A model generated the notes under the pieces. It saw only the letters and a list, made by a program, of their open reading frames with translations. It did not search any database and was not told the DNA's origin. Shown here one piece after another: positions 42,406 through 52,194 of a DNA stretch of 64,000 nt. How positions within the stretch are numbered: the first letter of the stretch is position 1; every line of letters begins with the position of its first letter. Position numbers and translations under genes: made by a program. The stretch comes from Chitinophaga lutea (lineage in GTDB: Bacteria > Bacteroidota > Bacteroidia > Chitinophagales > Chitinophagaceae), in contig NZ_RPDH01000001.1 of the NCBI RefSeq assembly GCF_003813775.1, forward strand, positions 1,736,001-1,800,000, written 5' to 3'.

Positions 42406-44619
42406 CTATTCCACCCACACCTCATCACAGGCGATCATCGCTTTTTTATGAGCACGGAAGCGCCACTCCGGTAACTGCGGCCAGTTATCCGCCGTCAGTT
42501 TCAGGTACCGGGCGCTTCCGCCGCCTTTGTGATCAAAACGGTATTGCAGCCGCTGCACCGTATAATCCTCCTCCGGCATTACATTATTCACCACACCGAG
42601 CGAGCGGTAATTTTTGCCGTCGTCAGACACCCATACCTGCATCTTTGACGGCCGGAATATCCAGTGCCGCGCATCTTCCAGGAAAGTCAGCGAAACGTTC
42701 GTAAATGCAACGGGCTTTCCCAGATCCACCACAGCCGATAAAGGCTCTCCATAAAAACAGAGCCAGTTATAACTGAAATCCGTATAGCCGGGATTGCCGT
42801 CTGTCAAGGTCTGCGGCCCTTTCGCGGGATATTCGGGCGCCGGTGCCGACTGAAGGTGCACGGTGGCGCGCAGGGCTTTGTTGCTCCGCACGCCGTCTGC
42901 CAGTATTTTCTCCCATTCCTTTGCATACGCGTCCGGCGACGGGCCGCCTTCAGACAGTTCTTTCACGCCGGCTGCTTTACTGTTGGCGGTGAATCGGCGT
43001 ATCCTGTCCGCCAGTCCGGGCCTCACTATCCACCCGTTTCCCTGCCGTTCAAAAATGCCATGCTGTTCGATGCCGTAAAAACGGGCCTGCTGCAGGTACA
43101 CATATTCCTGCGTCAGGCGGATGCGCTCCACGCGTTCATGAAGCGTGGCGTTCCCTTCCACGGCAGCTTCCGCTTTGTCGAGCAGCTGGCTGTATTTGTC
43201 CATGTGCATGGGAGAGAGGAAAGTGTTGTATTCGTTGACGGGGTTGCCGTAAATGTCCAGCTTCGGTTGCAGCGCGGCGGCCTGATCCAGCAGCGCCAGG
43301 TATTCTATTATCGGACCGGCGGCACGGCCGTAGTAACCTGTCAGGAATTCCGATTTCAATTGCTCTACGTCTGCATCCGGGCTCCATAGCAGCCGGGCTG
43401 CGAGATGCCCTTTCAGTTCCGCGAGTTCGCTGTACGTATAGCCGCTGCCCTGTTCGAACACACCTGCCACCTGCTGTTTTTTCAGGAACTGCATGTTGGG
43501 CTGCAGCGTGGCGATATTCGGGAAGATGGTGAGATAGTTCGTGAACTGGGTGCAATAGTCCCAGATAAAAATGTTGGGGGTTTTAGCGTACCAGCCATTG
43601 AGGCGGCTGCGGAAAGCCGCTGCGGAGCTTTCACGGTCAAGTGGGCGGCTGCGGTATACTTCGATGTTGCTCAACATCACATACACATTCGGCGCGGGCC
43701 GTAAATGCAGGGTGGGTTGCGCAGAGTAAGTGTAGGCCAGCGTGGTGAATATCTTATCCGGAAAGCGTGCCGCCACTTTATTGACGAACTGCACCAGTGA
43801 GCCTTGCGGGCCGCCTTCGCGTTTATCCACAGCGGCACACCGGTCGCACTCGCAATAGCCCACGTCGTCGTTAGGGCTGATGGACCAGTATAATGCATCG
43901 GGCTGCTCCGTCATCCGCTGTTTCAAAGCGGCCACGGTGATATCGAAAACGGCCTCGTTACTCAGACACAACTGTGTGGCTTTGCGCGTACCGTTCACCA
44001 GCGAAAAATATTCAGGATGCTGTTTGAAATAAGTACCCGCCGGCACCAGTTTGTTGAAGGAATGTCCCCAGAGCCCCCAGAGGTCTTCGAACCGGTGAAG
44101 ACGGTGCCAGTCGAGGTACTCTGCATCCGTGCAGGCCGCCGGCATGTACACTTCGCGGTAGCGGAATGCCGGCGCCTCATTAACCCGAACATTCCCCGGC
44201 ACAACGACCGTGTTCTTCGAAGGCGTATAAGCGGGCCCGCCATCCCATTTGCGGCAGCCGAGCAATTGCTCAACGAAAGCGTAAGCACCGTAAAGGACGC
44301 CTTTTCCTGGCCCACCCGTGATGACCAGCGATGTTCCTTCCACGTTGATCCGGAAACGCTCCGGCTGCATATTTTTATCGTACGTAACGCGCAATGATTT
44401 TTCACCTGCCGCCGCTTCTTCTTTCACCGCCAGTTTTACGCCGGACACGGCTTCCACATACCGCATCAAAACAGCCGCCGCTTTTTTCCCGTGCGCACCT
44501 GCGTCAGGCGCGAGACTGATGTGGTAATCGCTGCGCCCGCCCGCTACCAGCGTGATGTCGCCGCAGTGGCCGGGAAACGATGCCGCAAGCAGGCAGCAGA
44601 TGGACAATAGCGGTTTCAT
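42406..44619 (-). CDS. DUF4838 protein, putative glycoside hydrolase
   Basis: A 737-residue exported protein: signal peptide about 1-19, an N-terminal glucuronidase-like domain (about 20-140; YGAYAFVEQLLGCRKW), a central TIM-barrel DUF4838 domain (about 140-460; ALYWSISPNDDVGYCECDRC, YVMLSNIEVYRSR, IFIWDYCTQFTNY) with conserved acidic residues, and a C-terminal discoidin-like part (about 590-737). This supports a carbohydrate-active enzyme acting in the periplasm or at the surface. It begins 3 bases after the TPR/beta-barrel gene, last in the five-gene operon, so its natural substrate may be the glycan made by the synthase. Confidence 0.8.
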   Translation of the reverse strand: MKPLLSICCLLAASFPGHCGDITLVAGGRSDYHISLAPDAGAHGKKAAAVLMRYVEAVSGVKLAVKEEAAAGEKSLRVTYDKNMQPERFRINVEGTSLVITGGPGKGVLYGAYAFVEQLLGCRKWDGGPAYTPSKNTVVVPGNVRVNEAPAFRYREVYMPAACTDAEYLDWHRLHRFEDLWGLWGHSFNKLVPAGTYFKQHPEYFSLVNGTRKATQLCLSNEAVFDITVAALKQRMTEQPDALYWSISPNDDVGYCECDRCAAVDKREGGPQGSLVQFVNKVAARFPDKIFTTLAYTYSAQPTLHLRPAPNVYVMLSNIEVYRSRPLDRESSAAAFRSRLNGWYAKTPNIFIWDYCTQFTNYLTIFPNIATLQPNMQFLKKQQVAGVFEQGSGYTYSELAELKGHLAARLLWSPDADVEQLKSEFLTGYYGRAAGPIIEYLALLDQAAALQPKLDIYGNPVNEYNTFLSPMHMDKYSQLLDKAEAAVEGNATLHERVERIRLTQEYVYLQQARFYGIEQHGIFERQGNGWIVRPGLADRIRRFTANSKAAGVKELSEGGPSPDAYAKEWEKILADGVRSNKALRATVHLQSAPAPEYPAKGPQTLTDGNPGYTDFSYNWLCFYGEPLSAVVDLGKPVAFTNVSLTFLEDARHWIFRPSKMQVWVSDDGKNYRSLGVVNNVMPEEDYTVQRLQYRFDHKGGGSARYLKLTADNWPQLPEWRFRAHKKAMIACDEVWVE

Positions 44620-44622
44620 GAT

Positions 44623-47184
44623 TTAAAATTTGCGCAGCAGCGTCAGGTAAATATCGAATTGATTGTAATGCCGGTCGTTGGTGAGGCGCTGGTACGTCCA
44701 GTTGCCGAACACGCCCATGGTGGTGCGGTAAGCAAATGTTTTCTGGAACCCGATGCCCGCGCCTCCCGCCAGGAATGTGGCCTGCTGGTTGAACTGGTAG
44801 TTGCGGCTCCTGTCGTCGGGCGTGTTGCCGAGCGACAAGGTAAGGGCGATGAAGTCCTGCTGTTCGTTCATGTAAAACCTGTTCGTCAGTACATATGCAT
44901 GATACCAGTTGCCGTCTTCCGTGATCACATATCCCCTCAGATTGGCCCAGTACGCGCCCCATGTTTTGGCGGCAGACCATACGGCGGCGTAGTTCGACGC
45001 GCTGTCGGTTTTCAGGTAACGCGCACCCAGCTCTGCTTCCCATTCGCGGCCCAGATTATGGAACAACGAATAACCCGCTCTGAATTTCGGGAACACGTCG
45101 CTCGGCGACCAGCCGAGAATACCGTAAGAATAGTACTTTTTATTGTGGGTATAATACGTTTCGGCCTCCAGCTGCACACCGCTGCCGGCCGCGCGGTCCG
45201 CATAACTCACCCGGCCGCCGATACTGCCCTTTTCATGAAAACGAAGGTATTGCAAAGCCGTGACATTGGCGGGCCGGCTACCGTTATCGTAGATACTTTG
45301 CAGGTGAATGATGCCCGCCTGGTTGCGGTAGGTTTTACCGCGCAGGCGGTTGTAATAATCGCGCAGGTATTTGTCTCCGGGCCGCGCTTCGAGTTGCATC
45401 GCTACCGTTGCGGCAGCGGCTTTATAATTCTGCTGCGCTTCGAGGGCGGCTGCTTTTTTCATGAGCAGCGTTTCATGTGCGGGCTGTAATTGCAGTCCCC
45501 TGTCGGCATAAGCTATCGCGCTGTCGTATTGATGTAAAGCGAGGAAACTATTGACGATCTGCTGTACCAGCAATGTATCGCCGGGCTGATAAGCGTACGC
45601 CTTACGGTAGGCAATCAGCGCACTGTCCCACGCCTGCGCCTGCTGCAGTTGGCGGCCATGGGCGGCCAGCTGTTCGGCATACATCTGTTGCAGTTCGTGG
45701 TTGCCTGGTGCGGCTTTCAGCAGTTCCCCCGAAATCGCGTACGCTTCCGGCAGGCGGTTCGCCGCCTGCAGCAGCGCGGATTTTTTCATGCGAATATCGT
45801 CGTTGGGGCCCAACACCGCCAGGGCACTGTCGCACAGCGCAATGGCGTTTGTTACGTTGCCGGTGCTGTTTTCGAGGTTGATGAGACTGGTCCATGCTTC
45901 CGGATTGGCTGGCGCGTAGCGCAGTGATGTTTCGAGCAGCGGTTTCGCTTTATCCGGCGCATTGTTCCGCAGTTGTTGCCGCGCGGTGGCGAGCAGCTGT
46001 TCCGCATAAGCCTGTTGATAGCGTTGATGGGCAGGCGCCGATTGCAGCAGTTGCCTTGTGATCGCGGCCGCTTCTTCGTACCGCTGTCCCGCTTCGAGCA
46101 GGCCGGCCTTTTTGAACAGCAGCATCGTATCTGCCGGTGCGTATTGCAGCAGTGTATCGATCAGGGCGCCGGCCGCGGCGTAATCGCCCGCACGGTCGTA
46201 TGCCGCCGCGCGTTGCAGCTGGATGTCGCGGAAGGCCTGCAGGTTGCGGCTGTTCGCGTTTTTCTGTAAAAGCTGGCGGGCTGTAACGGCCGCTTCGTCG
46301 TACCGGTGCAACTCCTGCAGCAGACCGGTTTTCCGGCGAAGCAGGTCTTCGTCGCTGCCGAAACGCGAGAGCGCTTTGTTGAGCCAGCGGAGCGCCGGTT
46401 CGTATTGCTGCTGCTGGTGATAACTGTTGATGATGGCGAGGAAGGCATCTCTATTGCCCGGCGCTTCTGCCAGTATTTTCTCCGCCACCGCCCTTGTTTC
46501 GTGATGATTGTTTCTTTTGCGTGCGGCAACCAGTGCGGTTTCCAGCCGGTCGAGCACCACAAGTTTCGGGTCCGGCGGGGGCGCCGGTTTTTCTTCAGGC
46601 TGCAGGGCCGCGCGGGCCAGGCGTTCCTTTTCCTGTGCCGCCGCTTCCCGCATCGCGCGCACCTTCGCGTCGTTGCCGTAATGGCTGTTCAGTATCGTCA
46701 GCACCTCGTCTGCGGCGTTGGTTTGATGGAACTCCGTGAGCAGGCCGTGTTTTTTAAAGAGCAGTTCCTTGTTCAGCGGATCCTGTTCCAGCGCCATATC
46801 GATGTAACAGATGGCCTCTTTTCCGCGCCCGAGGCTGTTTTCAAGGTTAATGAGGTAAGCGAGCGCTTCCGTGTTGGGCGGCTGTTTTTTCAGCACCTCC
46901 AGCCATTCCAGCCTTGCCGCCGCGGGCTGGCGGGTGAGCAGGTACAGCCTTCCCAGCAGCAGTTTTACATCAGGGTATCCAGGCGACTGCTCCAGCGCCT
47001 TGCGGCATAAGGAGATCGCCTTTTCGTAATTGTGGTGTTCATTGGTTTCTTCCAGCGCCATCGTCAGCAGCTGATCGGACGACAGCAGCCCTTTCCGCTG
47101 CGCGGACACATCCGCGGCCGTCAGCATCAGCCCTAAACAAAAGACGTAGATCATTCTGTGGTTCATCGCACTACACGTTTTCAT
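44623..47184 (-). CDS. TPR protein with YaiO-like outer-membrane beta-barrel
   Basis: An 853-residue protein: signal peptide about 1-29, then many tetratricopeptide repeats (about 35-600; spaced blocks such as YEKAISLCRKALEQSPGYPD and YDSAIAYADRGLQLQPAH) and a C-terminal beta-barrel (about 610-853; HAYVLTNRFYMNEQQDF, ending in LTLLRKF) of the YaiO type. Periplasmic TPR plus barrel is the layout of exopolysaccharide exporters PgaA, BcsC and AlgK/E, making this the probable export pore. The GT2 stop is 2 bases upstream; Met7 is an alternative start. Confidence 0.83.
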   Translation of the reverse strand: MKTCSAMNHRMIYVFCLGLMLTAADVSAQRKGLLSSDQLLTMALEETNEHHNYEKAISLCRKALEQSPGYPDVKLLLGRLYLLTRQPAAARLEWLEVLKKQPPNTEALAYLINLENSLGRGKEAICYIDMALEQDPLNKELLFKKHGLLTEFHQTNAADEVLTILNSHYGNDAKVRAMREAAAQEKERLARAALQPEEKPAPPPDPKLVVLDRLETALVAARKRNNHHETRAVAEKILAEAPGNRDAFLAIINSYHQQQQYEPALRWLNKALSRFGSDEDLLRRKTGLLQELHRYDEAAVTARQLLQKNANSRNLQAFRDIQLQRAAAYDRAGDYAAAGALIDTLLQYAPADTMLLFKKAGLLEAGQRYEEAAAITRQLLQSAPAHQRYQQAYAEQLLATARQQLRNNAPDKAKPLLETSLRYAPANPEAWTSLINLENSTGNVTNAIALCDSALAVLGPNDDIRMKKSALLQAANRLPEAYAISGELLKAAPGNHELQQMYAEQLAAHGRQLQQAQAWDSALIAYRKAYAYQPGDTLLVQQIVNSFLALHQYDSAIAYADRGLQLQPAHETLLMKKAAALEAQQNYKAAAATVAMQLEARPGDKYLRDYYNRLRGKTYRNQAGIIHLQSIYDNGSRPANVTALQYLRFHEKGSIGGRVSYADRAAGSGVQLEAETYYTHNKKYYSYGILGWSPSDVFPKFRAGYSLFHNLGREWEAELGARYLKTDSASNYAAVWSAAKTWGAYWANLRGYVITEDGNWYHAYVLTNRFYMNEQQDFIALTLSLGNTPDDRSRNYQFNQQATFLAGGAGIGFQKTFAYRTTMGVFGNWTYQRLTNDRHYNQFDIYLTLLRKF

Positions 47185-47186
47185 GA

Positions 47187-48632
47187 TTATTTACACGCGG
47201 GTTTTACCTGTTGTTTGAATCCTTTTCGCTGCATGTTTCCCCAGCCGTGTTTTTTACCTGTGAGCTGGTAGAAATATCCTTTGATCGAAAAGAACAACAC
47301 CAGTGGATGATAGATCAGCGGTTCCAGGAAGGCCATCAGGCAAAGGCCCGCCACGTCTTTCCAGCTGCGGTAGTACTGGAAGGTGAATTGGTCCCACAGC
47401 ACCGCCAAAGACGATATCAGCACCGAGAAGGTGTAGATGAACAACAGCAGGATCACCGCAAAATCCCAGTTGATGATGTTAAAAACGATGATGTAGATAT
47501 AATACAGGATCCCGGTGAATTCAATCACCGGCGCCAGCAGTTCGAAGAGGAAATTGTACGGGAACACCACGAGCCCCAGCCTTTTGTATTTCGGGTTGAA
47601 GAGCACGTGCCGGTGTTTGCCGAATATTTGCATGAGGCCACGGGCCCAGCGCGTGCGCTGGCGGCCGAATACTTTCAGGGTCGACGGGCCTTCCGTCCAG
47701 CACAATGTTTCGGGAATATACCGCACCGCGTATTCCTGCTTTTGTTCGCACATGTATTTGCACATGCGTATCACCATGTCCATATCCTCGCCCATGGAAG
47801 CGGGATCATATCCGCCGGTTTTAATGAGGATTTCCTTGTCGAACAATCCCAGCCCGCCGGATACGTTCGGTACGGCGTTGATGAACGTCCAGCCCATTTT
47901 CCCGAGCACGAAAGAGCGCACGTATTCCATTTCCTGGAACCGCGGCAGCAGGTCTTCCGGCGGGTGTACGGCCGTGAGCATGCCGGCATCCGTTTCGCAG
48001 GAATTGGCCATGCGCAGCGGGGCGCCGGTGGCGATCACTCTTTTTTCTTCGTCCATAAACGGGCGTATCAGTTTCAGCAGGGTATCGCGGTTGAGGATAC
48101 AGTCCACGTCCGTATTGAGGATATAACCGAAAGCCGCAGCGTTGATGCCGGCGTTGGCCGCGTCCGCCTTGCTTTTACCGTTCTCTTTGTCGAGCACCAG
48201 CAATTTGGCGTAAGCGGGATTGGCGGATTTGAAGAAACGTTTCACCGGTTGCGAAAACAACTGCGGATGATAGGCATAGTCGATTTCCGAGAGGTCGAAC
48301 TCGCGGATAAGTTTTTCGAGCGTATCGTCGGTACTGCCGTCGTTAACGATGATCACCTCAAAGCGCGGATAGTTCAGGGCAAGCAGGGAACGTACGTTCG
48401 AGATGATGGTAACGCCTTCGTTATACGCGGGCGCCACTACGGAAATGCCCGGTGTAAGCGGAGACTCCACCAGGGTGATGGTTTCCCTGATCCTGTTTTT
48501 CCAGGCGTACCGCCGGATGGCGATCAGCGAGAGCGTTGAGAGTAAGGTATAAAATGCAAAGAGGCATACGCAGTAAAAGAACACCGAGTGCTCATAAAAT
48601 CTCACGATATGCTCCCAGATGGTATGCTGCAT
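47187..48632 (-). CDS. Processive GT2 glycosyltransferase (exopolysaccharide synthase-like)
   Basis: A 481-residue inner-membrane synthase. Membrane segments lie at about 14-38 and in the C-terminal third (about 350-460). Catalytic motifs are ISVVAPAYNEG, IVNDGSTDDT, NTDVDC, GEDMDM and GRQRTRWARGL, the QxxRW of processive synthases such as PgaC and hyaluronan or cellulose synthase. The start at 48632 was chosen because it overlaps the HEAT gene stop by ATGA; a frame extending to 48710 looks non-coding. It probably uses a UDP-sugar from the cytoplasm; the sugar is unknown. Confidence 0.88.
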   Translation of the reverse strand: MQHTIWEHIVRFYEHSVFFYCVCLFAFYTLLSTLSLIAIRRYAWKNRIRETITLVESPLTPGISVVAPAYNEGVTIISNVRSLLALNYPRFEVIIVNDGSTDDTLEKLIREFDLSEIDYAYHPQLFSQPVKRFFKSANPAYAKLLVLDKENGKSKADAANAGINAAAFGYILNTDVDCILNRDTLLKLIRPFMDEEKRVIATGAPLRMANSCETDAGMLTAVHPPEDLLPRFQEMEYVRSFVLGKMGWTFINAVPNVSGGLGLFDKEILIKTGGYDPASMGEDMDMVIRMCKYMCEQKQEYAVRYIPETLCWTEGPSTLKVFGRQRTRWARGLMQIFGKHRHVLFNPKYKRLGLVVFPYNFLFELLAPVIEFTGILYYIYIIVFNIINWDFAVILLLFIYTFSVLISSLAVLWDQFTFQYYRSWKDVAGLCLMAFLEPLIYHPLVLFFSIKGYFYQLTGKKHGWGNMQRKGFKQQVKPACK

Positions 48633-49777
48633 CAGAATTTGATTGAAGGGTTGAGACTGTGCTGGAGAATGACATGCTGCATGCCCACGCTTTCGGCCTG
48701 CAGGTCCCACAGCATGGGCTGCGCCAGTACATCGTGGTGGACGATTGAACGGGCGGCCTGCTTTTTCAGGTCGAAGTCCTGCGCGTGCAGAAATTCCTGT
48801 TTCAGGAATCCCAGTTGTTTGCCCGAGCCGATGCGGCCGAGGGCTTTTAGGATCTCACTTTTGCAGGACTGGGGCTGGGTGGGGTACATAGCCACCAGCG
48901 CTTCTTCCGTTTCTTCGGCCATCAGCTTGCCCAGGCTGTTGATGGCAAGGGCGCGCAATTGCACGTCGTCCGACGGCAACAGGCGGCTGATGGCCGGTAT
49001 TGCTTCGTATTGTTGAAAGTGCGCCGCCATTTTGAGAGAAAACGAGATAACAGTTGGATGGAAGGCCGGTTGGATCCATTGCGCGAAGGAAGGGGCGGGC
49101 AGGTCCTTCCGTTGTGAAATCACCCGGAACAGTTCAAACTGTTCCCAGGGCAGCAATGGTGTGTCGATATTTGAAAAGAAGTCGAGCGGATGCTGCGCGG
49201 AACATTTCGCCAGGTAACAGCGGGCCATTTCGCGTACATAGCGGTGGCTGCTGGTGGTCATGGGCAAAACGACGGCTTCGTCCACGATGATTTCCATATT
49301 GAACAATTCGCTGAGGGCTTCCACCACCAGCGGCGGATGGCCGCTCCGGAGCTTTTGCAGCGCTTGCTCGTGCAGCCCCAGCGCTTCGTACAGCTGGCGG
49401 AACGCGGCGGCAGACACGCCGGAGAAATTACGGCGGTAGTGCAGTATTTTCTGCACCACCAGCTTCCGGGCCCAGGCCCGGTGGAGGGGTAACTGCCGGA
49501 AAGCCGCTACCGGCAACTCCGGGGGCTCCGTTGCGAGAATGCACTGCATCATATATTCCAGTATCAGCGCATCTATCTGTACCGATACCGGTTTATTCCG
49601 GCGGTCCCTGTAATATTTCAAGCCCCTGGACAGCATCAGCCCCAGGTAAGCCAGCAGGGTGCCGGCAATGGCGATCAGAGAAACGATAATGGCAGACTGG
49701 ATGAAAAGCGGCAGATAGGCAAAATCTTCCCTTACCTCCAGCAACCAGGCTTGCACCCACTGAAAGATTGACACCAT
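48632..49777 (-). CDS. Membrane-anchored HEAT-repeat protein
   Basis: A 381-residue protein with one membrane segment near the N terminus (about 25-48) and a long helical region with HEAT-type repeats (about 65-370; SFSLKMAAHFQQYEAIPAIS and VQLRALAINSLGKLMAEE, KSEILKALGRIGSGKQLG). HEAT arrays are protein-binding scaffolds; the topology suggests the array faces the cytoplasm. It overlaps the synthase gene by 4 bases (ATGA) and so is probably a dedicated partner. No known domain gives an enzymatic role. Confidence 0.8.
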   Translation of the reverse strand: MVSIFQWVQAWLLEVREDFAYLPLFIQSAIIVSLIAIAGTLLAYLGLMLSRGLKYYRDRRNKPVSVQIDALILEYMMQCILATEPPELPVAAFRQLPLHRAWARKLVVQKILHYRRNFSGVSAAAFRQLYEALGLHEQALQKLRSGHPPLVVEALSELFNMEIIVDEAVVLPMTTSSHRYVREMARCYLAKCSAQHPLDFFSNIDTPLLPWEQFELFRVISQRKDLPAPSFAQWIQPAFHPTVISFSLKMAAHFQQYEAIPAISRLLPSDDVQLRALAINSLGKLMAEETEEALVAMYPTQPQSCKSEILKALGRIGSGKQLGFLKQEFLHAQDFDLKKQAARSIVHHDVLAQPMLWDLQAESVGMQHVILQHSLNPSIKF

Positions 49778-49795
49778 AAAAAGAAATAAGCAGAA

Positions 49796-50176
49796 TTATT
49801 GAATCCCCTGTTTTTTGAGTAGCAGCCTGTTCACCCGCGAAATCAGCTCGCTGGGCGTCACCGGCTTTTTCAGATAATCGTCCGCACCCAGGTTGAAGGC
49901 ATCCTGGATGGTTTTTTCATGCGCCACCGACGACACGACCATCACCGGGGTATTCCCCTGCAACTCGTTCATCTTCAGTCGGCTGATCAGTTCCATGCCG
50001 CTCGCAAATGGCAGCATCAGGTCGGTGATAATCAGGTCGAATTGTGTTTCCTGCAAAAATTTAAGCGCGTCTTTTCCGTTCTGCGCAATCGTAATCGTGT
50101 GCCCCTGCTTGCTCAACATTAATGTAAGCGCGCGGCACATGAGAACGTCATCCTCAATAACCAGTATTCTAGGCAT
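49796..50176 (-). CDS. Receiver-only response regulator
   Basis: A 126-residue CheY-like receiver domain with no output domain. The acidic pocket is Asp9-Asp10, the phosphoacceptor Asp52 (LIITDLMLP), the switch Ser82 and the conserved Lys104 (LKKP). As it lacks DNA-binding or enzymatic parts, it probably acts through protein contact, perhaps with the HEAT protein encoded 18 bases downstream. No sensor kinase is adjacent, so its partner kinase is encoded elsewhere. Confidence 0.92.
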   Translation of the reverse strand: MPRILVIEDDVLMCRALTLMLSKQGHTITIAQNGKDALKFLQETQFDLIITDLMLPFASGMELISRLKMNELQGNTPVMVVSSVAHEKTIQDAFNLGADDYLKKPVTPSELISRVNRLLLKKQGIQ

Positions 50177-50520: not shown

Positions 50521-52194
50521 CTATTCGGCTTTCAGTTTGATGAGCGGACTGTTGTGCGTGGGTTCCAGGCCGGCCGGTGCGGGCAATGTGATTTTCAGCA
50601 TATAATCGCCCTTTTCCACCGGTACCTTCACCGGTATCACCACGCTGTCTCGCTGCAGCGCTTCGGCCAGCGGAAGCGTTCCCCGAACGGTTTCATTGCC
50701 GCTTTTTCCGTTCCAGAGCATATACCCCACCGTAGGGGGCATATTGGCAGGCCCTATCTGCACCGGCGCATCATATCCGTTTTTCACACCCAGTTTCAGA
50801 AAAAGCGTATCACCACCCCGTCCGGTTAATCGGGTATGCACGGGCTCGAACTGGATGAGCTGGTAGGAGTAATACGGCGAATCGGTCCGGTAAAACAGGA
50901 GGCCCTGGGTACGTTGCAGGCTGTCGCCTTCGGGAATGTACGGCCGGTGGTTCGACACCAGCAGGATGTTTTTGCCCCAGAGCGATTCTTCGGTATGCCA
51001 GTAGTTGTACTGGCTCCTGCGGGCGAAAACACTGTTGATGCTATACGAAACGCCGCCGGCGTAGAACATGTATTTGGAAGGGGATTGGTAGCTGCTCACA
51101 AACACCACGGGCCTTCCGGCGGCTTGCTGCGCGAGCTCGGCCGTCCAGGTTTTGTTGTGATGTATTTCTGGGCGGATCTCCACGCCGGGCGCAAAGTCCC
51201 ACACCATGTACACCCGCACCACCAGCACCAACAATAACGATAGCCACCAGGTTTTTTGCAGCACCTTCGCGGAAAAACCCTGTCGTACAATACCCTGGTG
51301 CGCGAGCACCATCAACGGGGCGAATATCATCACGGTCCAGTTGGCTTCCACGCGGCCTTTGAAAGTGCTGAGCAGGAAAAAAGCCAGCACGCCCACGAGG
51401 CTGAATTTCAGCGCCCGCTCAAAACTGTTCTGCACCTGCGCGCGGAACGCATAATACAGCAGCAGCCAGCCCACCAGAGGACCGAAGAGCAATATCTGGC
51501 CGGCAATATAATCGAGCGAAAAACTGATGTCGTAGGCCGATGCATTGCGTTCCACCAGGTGATATTGCAGGGAAGGGAAGTTATGCGTGTACTGCCAGTA
51601 CAGGTGCGGGAAGAACAGCAGGGAGGTGACCACTACCGCCACATAAAAGCGGTACAGCCTCAGCAGGTGCAGGTTCGACAGCACCGTAAAAAACACCAGC
51701 AGCACGCCGTGGTATTTGCTGTAAAACATCAGCGCCATGCTGACCGCGAGCAACAGGGTATTTTTCCAGCTCTGCGACGCCAGGAAATTGCGGTAGAGAT
51801 AAAAATACAGCGTGGCGAAAAATATCAGTGGTATGTCGGGTACGGCCAGGATGCCGCCTACCTGCATAGCGCCCATGCCGGCGAGGATGAGATAAAAAAC
51901 GACGTTGTTTTTCCGGGGTATCAGCCGGTCTACGAGCAGCAGCGTCAGCACGTTGAGCACCACCATGCCCAGCCGCACACCCAGTTCGTTAGGAAAGAGG
52001 GCGTAACCGAGTTTGATGAGTATGGCGATCATCGGCGGATGGTCGAAGTACCCCCAGTCGAGGTGGCGGGAGTATACCCAGTAATACGCCTCATCGTCCA
52101 TCAGTTCGGTGAACGAGGCCTGTAAAACGGCCAGTAGGGCCCATAGGGCGATGACGCCGTATTTATACTGGTTTTTGGTCAAAAAGCGGATCAT
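50521..52194 (-). CDS. ArnT-like glycosyltransferase, GT39/83 family
   Basis: A 557-residue multi-pass membrane protein (about 10-12 helices over residues 10-345) with the acidic first-loop motif MDDEAYYW and HLDWGYFDHPPM of dolichyl/undecaprenyl-phosphate-sugar-using transferases. The C-terminal part (about 350-557) is periplasmic and beta-rich. The family moves sugars from lipid carriers to lipid A or proteins; the acceptor here is unknown. It lies 14 bases after the omega-amidase gene and ends at a strong terminator. Confidence 0.88.
   Translation of the reverse strand: MIRFLTKNQYKYGVIALWALLAVLQASFTELMDDEAYYWVYSRHLDWGYFDHPPMIAILIKLGYALFPNELGVRLGMVVLNVLTLLLVDRLIPRKNNVVFYLILAGMGAMQVGGILAVPDIPLIFFATLYFYLYRNFLASQSWKNTLLLAVSMALMFYSKYHGVLLVFFTVLSNLHLLRLYRFYVAVVVTSLLFFPHLYWQYTHNFPSLQYHLVERNASAYDISFSLDYIAGQILLFGPLVGWLLLYYAFRAQVQNSFERALKFSLVGVLAFFLLSTFKGRVEANWTVMIFAPLMVLAHQGIVRQGFSAKVLQKTWWLSLLLVLVVRVYMVWDFAPGVEIRPEIHHNKTWTAELAQQAAGRPVVFVSSYQSPSKYMFYAGGVSYSINSVFARRSQYNYWHTEESLWGKNILLVSNHRPYIPEGDSLQRTQGLLFYRTDSPYYSYQLIQFEPVHTRLTGRGGDTLFLKLGVKNGYDAPVQIGPANMPPTVGYMLWNGKSGNETVRGTLPLAEALQRDSVVIPVKVPVEKGDYMLKITLPAPAGLEPTHNSPLIKLKAE

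Follow-up and report, generated by a model that had tools for sequence, protein, structure and literature searches.

Does a phosphorylated receiver protein bind a HEAT-repeat partner and alter the activity of a polysaccharide synthase? The question is posed by an operon of Chitinophaga lutea (assembly GCF_003813775.1) located at 42406..50176 of the stretch analysed here, 64,000 nt of contig NZ_RPDH01000001.1 at positions 1,736,001-1,800,000 (the window). On the minus strand the operon encodes, in this order, a receiver, a HEAT membrane protein, a family 2 glycosyltransferase (GT2), a tetratricopeptide repeat (TPR) protein with a YaiO-type barrel, and a DUF4838 protein. We favour, with moderate confidence, the reading that it is a synthase-dependent exopolysaccharide machine whose GT2 is gated by the phosphorylated receiver through the HEAT protein. 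Polysaccharide synthesis and export is by itself highly probable, as a secreted polymer is what a synthase, an exporter and a glycosidase-like protein together point to; control by the receiver through HEAT is fairly probable. The five genes are:

49796..50176, minus strand: single-domain response-regulator receiver, 126 aa (PF00072, 97.9 bits; no output domain)
48632..49777, minus strand: HEAT-repeat protein, 381 aa (PF13646, HEAT_2, 34.7 bits against a cut-off of 27.7)
47187..48632, minus strand: membrane GT2 glycosyltransferase, 481 aa from ATG (PF00535, PF13641, PF13632)
44623..47184, minus strand: TPR repeats and a C-terminal YaiO-type outer-membrane beta barrel, 853 aa (PF19413, TPR families, TIGR04390)
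42406..44619, minus strand: DUF4838 protein with a C-terminal F5/8 type C module, 737 aa (PF16126, 317.5 bits)

Layout of the operon

The coordinates and the Pfam and NCBIfam matches agree with an earlier prediction for this DNA (the original prediction), which described a tight minus-strand unit of these five families. All the distances it gave between the genes (18, -1, 2 and 3 bases) were confirmed, but the ATGA motif it placed at the HEAT/GT2 junction was not: the junction reads TGATG, with one base common to both genes. The HEAT protein has one N-terminal hydrophobic segment (residues 18-50). The GT2, for which a longer open reading frame (ORF) is possible from a GTG at 48710, has hydrophobic segments at residues 17-41 and inside 353-449, and the QxxRW motif attributed to it was found as QRTRW. 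A Pfam scan of the five operon proteins found no deacetylase, PgaD, GGDEF, PilZ or BcsB domain. The accessory set had been called new, and Pga and Bcs helper domains are indeed missing, but the receiver and the HEAT protein proved to be core partners rather than accessories, as shown below.

The HEAT protein and the GT2 form the conserved core

Two sets of loci were compared. Set 1 comprised 80 loci found with a GT2 profile, the best 80 of at least 436 confirmed relatives, together with eight plasmid loci (88 in total); the plasmid loci came from a GT2 protein search that matched 234 records, and 10 of the 15 listed were examined. L085 duplicates L013. As L017, L033, L059, L070 and L096 end at a contig edge, 83 loci were assessable. 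Set 2 comprised 41 Bacteroidota loci, 39 chosen from 79 matches, one from a draw of the window's family, and the second copy in C. lutea itself (L098); its genomes may overlap those of set 1.

The HEAT gene was directly upstream of the GT2 gene or fused to it in 82 of the 83 assessable loci of set 1. It was the directly upstream ORF in 77, was upstream but skipped by the gene caller in L027, L066 and L088, and formed a HEAT-GT2 fusion in L082 and L089, each fusion being directly preceded by a receiver-bearing gene. The remaining locus, L094 (Mycoplasmatota), encodes a GT2 with a fused N-terminal part that the HEAT profile does not match, hence its exclusion from the 82. The profile matched 82 of 4155 ORFs, exactly the HEAT partners of set 1, though it was built and iterated on the same loci and these counts are therefore partly circular. 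Pfam provided an independent check, with PF13646 matched at E ≤ 0.01 in 72 of 78 GT2-partner HEAT proteins, window included. An N-terminal hydrophobic segment was present in 73/77 HEAT proteins. HEAT was directly upstream in all 41 loci of set 2, 39 of them by profile and two by Pfam alone (36.7 bits for L120; 23.8 bits for L142, below the 27.7 cut-off). The C. lutea genome has 19 PF13646 matches, and two of them adjoin a GT2. Because these two flank the only two members of the GT2 subfamily in the genome, the pairing is more than chance.

The 79 distinct genome loci of set 1 were assigned to 13 named phyla, with one locus lacking a phylum name and 43 belonging to Bacteroidota. HEAT was found in 11 named bacterial phyla once a contig-cut Latescibacterota locus and L094 are set aside. 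The plasmid loci add Deinococcota and the haloarchaeon Haloarcula, and two further haloarchaea agree. The GT2 was matched at E ≤ 1e-100 in 70 genomes of 296 Bacteroidota drawn from a larger group, and in 23 of 79 genomes drawn from the window's family. Gene order around the pair varies. A Bacteroides plasmid carries HEAT-GT2-TPR-DUF4838 without a receiver, and an Emticicia plasmid carries receiver-HEAT-GT2 followed by YaiO and a PF00884 enzyme (its HEAT gene is annotated as hypothetical and was labelled by profile). The order is receiver-TPR-HEAT-GT2 on Erythrobacter and Devosia plasmids, receivers-YaiO-HEAT-GT2 with an Hpt gene next on the opposite strand on a Mesorhizobium plasmid, TPR-HEAT-GT2 on a Deinococcus plasmid, and HEAT-GT2, from ORF calls, on a Paenibacillus plasmid. 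Haloarcula has receiver-HEAT-GT2-kinase, and the two other haloarchaea have receiver, HEAT and GT2 in series, though a small gene separates receiver from HEAT in Halosolutus.

In bacteria and haloarchaea alike, the core module is therefore HEAT-GT2, most often joined by a receiver, and it is wider than Bacteroidota; TPR/YaiO proteins are added in many organisms that have an outer membrane. The original prediction took all five genes as the unit. The five families do co-occur in the same order in L018, L020, L021, L022, L055, L104 and L122 (with two GT2 genes in six of these loci and one in L104), but the receiver, YaiO and DUF4838 vary in presence while HEAT-GT2 is constant. The five genes were accordingly rejected as the conserved unit, and the five-gene form is a derived branch.

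Receivers and signalling inputs

In 66 of 88 loci of set 1 and 33 of 41 of set 2, the GT2 has a receiver encoded no more than 3.5 kb away on its own strand; a stand-alone receiver (<190 aa) was found within this distance in 51/88 and 32/41, respectively. With both strands and kinases counted, the regions near the GT2 (583 kb) gave 101 receiver matches and those farther out (765 kb) gave 40. The functional residues of the stand-alone receivers, window included, are conserved: D52, K104 and S/T at position 82 each in 53 of 54, and D9 in 51 of 54. The window receiver itself has the phospho-acceptor Asp, acid pair, S/T and Lys of single-domain response regulators and no output domain. As a receiver of this kind acts only by protein contact, and HEAT and GT2 are the constant neighbours, gating that runs from receiver to HEAT to GT2 is the simplest arrangement.

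Candidate sources of the phosphoryl signal are encoded in several clusters. In Haloarcula, Devosia, Mesorhizobium and the second C. lutea copy, a kinase or Hpt gene is part of the cluster or adjoins it, and long ORFs matching the kinase and receiver profiles precede the receiver in L050-L053 and others (profile labels only). Since the kinase profile also matches receivers, long ORFs with both matches are candidate kinases, except in L098, where Pfam confirmed the kinase. This second copy (L098, G000:C3:30000-49000; GT2 profile score 605 bits) encodes a PAS-kinase-receiver-Hpt protein, a PF00884 enzyme and a divergent TPR-YaiO gene, then receiver-HEAT-GT2. Cross-talk between its hybrid kinase and the window receiver is possible.

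Cyclic di-GMP (c-di-GMP) was considered as the true regulator, with the receiver as a minor input. Receiver-GGDEF genes with an intact GGEEF motif occur in L063, L068 and L090 (with Pfam support in L063 only); in L063, from Bacillota, the receiver position is held by an Hpt-receiver-GGDEF-receiver gene. In the spirochaete locus L089, the receiver gene combines its receiver with a metallo-beta-lactamase-like domain and a weak match to GGDEF. GGDEF was found in 23 of the 70 Bacteroidota carriers of this GT2, and in 12 of these 23 it lies 1.5-3 kb from the GT2. In contrast, 47 of the 70 carriers have no GGDEF, and neither GGDEF nor PilZ was matched anywhere in the C. lutea genome at E ≤ 0.001, which makes this alternative very improbable; c-di-GMP was rejected as a general input on the count of carriers without GGDEF. 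The original prediction had reported no PgaB deacetylase, PgaD, PilZ or GGDEF. This held for the operon and, for GGDEF and PilZ, for the whole genome, but does not extend to the family, as GGDEF occurs in other lineages. The missing c-di-GMP parts are a trait of the C. lutea genome and many of its relatives, not of the whole family.

A different receiver arrangement was seen in three Paenibacillaceae loci (L077, L091, L095), where HEAT-GT2 is followed by a protein of about 270 aa with an N-terminal part of unknown type ahead of its C-terminal receiver, and then by a nucleotide-sugar dehydrogenase; the domains were scanned in L077, and those of L091 and L095 were deduced from gene order and length.

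The GT2 and its likely product

The best NCBIfam model of the window GT2 is TIGR03937 (PgaC_IcaA), at 126.8 bits against a cut-off of 422.3, and PgaC_IcaA is also the best model for all four family members scanned. On the GT2 family profile, unsplit members scored 508-722 bits in set 1 and 416-722 in the Bacteroidota draw (some partial), while E. coli PgaC scored 125, YaiP 60 and a piece of BcsA (residues 251-700) 36. The operon could in principle be an ordinary poly-N-acetylglucosamine (PNAG; Pga/Ica) system with swapped helper genes. Such a system would account for the choice of model, for a TPR-barrel exporter like PgaA, and for a DUF4838 protein that resembles hexosaminidase-type folds, PgaB having an annotated hydrolase domain. 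Against this, the window GT2 falls far below the PgaC cut-off, E. coli PgaC lies well outside the family's score range, and neither a deacetylase nor PgaD is among the five genes. An ordinary PNAG operon was thus rejected, and the version with swapped helpers is unlikely.

Many membrane GT2s are lipid-linked enzymes, and the window GT2 might likewise be non-processive, adding single sugars to lipid or protein, with the barrel and the DUF4838 protein serving to process surface glycoconjugates. The PF00884 (sulfatase/LTA-synthase-like) enzymes that adjoin some family members fit such a role. However, the motif Q[RNKHA]x[RH]W was present in 93 of 93 GT2 family ORFs, PgaC_IcaA was the nearest curated model in all four members scanned, and TPR barrels are neighbours, so that a non-processive enzyme appears improbable. 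When grouping with lipid-linked enzymes was checked, the nearest curated model was PgaC_IcaA, with a score far below its cut-off. D149, D176, D178, E283, D284, Q326, R327, R329 and W330 were invariant in eight GT2 sequences (numbering from a 482-residue translation that has one additional residue at its start). A sequence profile search of solved chains placed chondroitin synthase first, followed by other GT2s, with cellulose synthase at 4e-10. The window protein is a membrane GT2 with motifs of the processive type, and it is probably processive.

Neighbouring genes bear on the product. In Halosolutus, the GT2 is followed at 219 bases, on the same strand, by genes for a nucleotidyltransferase resembling GlmU (259 bits against a cut-off of 292) and for GlmS. 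Based on the PgaC likeness, the GlmS/GlmU-like genes and the hexosaminidase-like DUF4838 fold, an amino-sugar polymer is favoured, at about even odds. Among the neighbours scanned (38 of 51 unlabelled ones, with L042 in the sample), three match PF00884. PF00884 enzymes lie beside the GT2 in L010, L042 and L098, and the domain is fused to the GT2 C-terminus in L050, with ORFs of equal length in L051-L053. Tandem GT2 genes of the same subfamily lie between HEAT and barrel in L018-L022, L055 and L122; the window and L104 have a single gene. The tandem copies fall in different subclades of the GT2 tree, a hint that the polymer may contain two sugars or that the two enzymes work as a catalytic pair.

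Large proteins are encoded at several Bacillota loci (L063:10392-13625, L014:2570-7883, L067:4865-6988, L068:10385-13654, L078:2606-7877, L090:10395-13607, L091:5498-7714 and L095:5445-7706). They showed 26-57% identity to the L063 protein in one multiple alignment, and the L063 and both L014 proteins had no Pfam match at E ≤ 0.001.

The proposed exporter barrel and the DUF4838 protein

The fourth operon protein belongs to the YaiO family, with 138.9 bits for PF19413 (cut-off 23.9) and 80.6 for TIGR04390 (cut-off 32). A model of its last 294 residues (predicted local distance difference test score, pLDDT, 93.1) has 14 strands behind four helices. Together with the Pfam matches, the model predicts an outer-membrane barrel preceded by TPR repeats, and a role in export. 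Pfam matched YaiO in 40 of 50 TPR-type neighbours, namely the window and 49 of 54 labelled ORFs (L012:7605-7958 and those of L017, L019, L048 and L085 were dropped). As the first YaiO profile drifted into the TPR repeats, exporter counts use Pfam, and set 2 was searched with a barrel-only profile.

The DUF4838 model (pLDDT 92.5) resembles BT0459 and GH115 and GH84 enzymes, and the predicted likeness to GH20/GH84/GH115-like glycosidases spans the catalytic part; residue D251 of the protein is invariant. A processing glycosidase is the slightly favoured role. Relatives of the protein were sampled as 41 used from 120 of 1297. GT2 trees were made for set 1 with a quick IQ-TREE run (L085 and rows <380 residues omitted) and for both sets with FastTree; the outgroup branches of the former are very long, and the order and depth of phyla were therefore not used. 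In the set 1 tree, a 27-row clade (SH-aLRT 99) contained 21 loci, 20 of which have DUF4838, window included, whereas L019 ends before that position. The combined tree placed all DUF4838 loci (the 20 of set 1 with L104, L118, L122 and L139) in one 37-row clade (support 86), which also contains four assessable loci without the gene (L028, L029, L032, L138). Thus, DUF4838 is confined to a single branch of Bacteroidota, within which it was either lost in places or gained late. L021 is labelled Beijerinckiaceae, and both its GT2 genes group beside those of Chitinophaga sp. YR627; it is probably a mis-binned contig.

With 344 bases between them, the operon is preceded on its own strand by a gene for a PMT_2-type membrane glycosyltransferase (50521-52194). 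A promoter scan was uninformative (5 sites, 6.4 expected), and a terminator scan (17 against 12.0 expected, standard deviation 3.5) was not used.

Proposed mechanism

In the proposed scheme, the GT2 would act at the inner membrane and polymerise a nucleotide sugar, probably an N-acetylhexosamine or a derivative. The TPR-YaiO barrel would take the polymer across the outer membrane, and the DUF4838 protein, as a secreted glycosidase, may trim or remodel it. With its anchor next to the GT2, the HEAT protein would fill the place held by PgaD or PilZ parts in c-di-GMP-controlled synthases, and the phosphorylated single-domain receiver would dock on the HEAT repeats and switch the synthase. Processivity, the sugar, the contact between receiver and HEAT protein, and the direction of control are the parts that we infer.

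Several observations weigh against this scheme. In set 1, 22 of 88 loci (5 contig-cut) lack a receiver within 3.5 kb, as do 8 of 41 in set 2. A receiver is present within this distance in the window, L018-L023 and L055, all of the 27-row clade, but the Flavobacteriaceae/Bacteroidales rows of the same clade lack one in 11 of 12 cases, and there HEAT must function without it. The window receiver is an orphan (no search for its kinase was made), and GGDEF occurs within or close to the receiver gene in some lineages. Among structural matches of the barrel, hydrocarbon channels and general porins come first, and PgaA is at rank 50. A nucleotide-sugar dehydrogenase accounts for three of the 38 neighbours scanned (L077 among them), and L121 has an epimerase/dehydratase-type gene; the product may therefore differ among lineages. 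A hexosamine-only product, favoured by the GlmS/GlmU-like genes and the PgaC likeness, was rejected on these signs of variation.

The loci without a nearby receiver, and the fact that receiver genes are common, would also suit a receiver that acts on another target, with HEAT as a mere assembly factor or scaffold of the GT2. Nevertheless, receivers are found next to HEAT-GT2 or to YaiO-HEAT-GT2 in loci across phyla, including three haloarchaeal ones (one with the small gene in between), and no alternative recurring target was seen in the compared loci. Action on another target is therefore rather unlikely, and gating of the GT2 by the receiver through HEAT is retained.

A conserved receiver-HEAT-GT2 module would link sensor kinases directly to the matrix polymer in Bacteroidota such as the 47 carriers without GGDEF. 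Many genes with generic names ('HEAT repeat domain-containing', 'glycosyltransferase') would be united as one machine. More tentatively, and somewhat short of an even chance, the module may represent a cross-domain synthase class, in many bacterial phyla and haloarchaea, gated post-translationally by two-component phosphorelays via a dedicated HEAT subunit. If true, this would be a third switch for synthase-dependent polymers, beside c-di-GMP allostery and transcription, and would explain how matrix synthesis is turned on or off at once in organisms without c-di-GMP signalling.

Comparison with known systems

The interpretation in the original prediction is partly supported as a whole. Its central proposal, a polysaccharide operon of the synthase/exporter type, is supported, and the gene order recurs in distant genomes. 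It had called the system a candidate undescribed one, and no published name for the receiver-HEAT-GT2 module was recognised in the open-access literature searched, although an account that uses only locus tags might have escaped notice. The module appears to be a synthase-dependent polysaccharide system notable for its spread and apparent phosphorelay control.

PNAG systems (pgaABCD/icaADBC) have a PgaC-type GT2 membrane synthase, the TPR-barrel exporter PgaA, the helper PgaD and, as annotated in E. coli, a hydrolase in the operon. The window operon resembles them in having a GT2 synthase, a predicted TPR-barrel exporter and a putative hydrolase, but its GT2 belongs to a separate subfamily, and it has a receiver and HEAT instead of a PgaB-type deacetylase and PgaD. 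Bcs cellulose systems likewise combine a GT2 synthase, a TPR-barrel exporter and an operon glycosidase, but BcsA scores far below the family and the window operon has neither a PilZ domain nor BcsB. The E. coli yaiO-yaiX-yaiP-yaiS stretch has a YaiO barrel close to a GT2; it differs in the low score of YaiP, in its annotated acyltransferase and deacetylase genes, and in having no HEAT or receiver gene there.

Post-translational control of synthase-dependent exopolysaccharides is, according to the accessible part of one report, frequently exerted via c-di-GMP (PMC12802240). The same part describes EpsW and EpsZ of Myxococcus, whose target enzyme differs from that of the window operon, being the phosphoglycosyl transferase that initiates a Wzx/Wzy pathway rather than part of a synthase-dependent system, and it mentions no HEAT adaptor (PMC12802240). 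The likeness lies in the switch: a phosphorylated single-domain receiver activates the exopolysaccharide enzyme EpsZ, through a contact inferred by the authors, and so controls polysaccharide synthesis post-translationally (PMC12802240).

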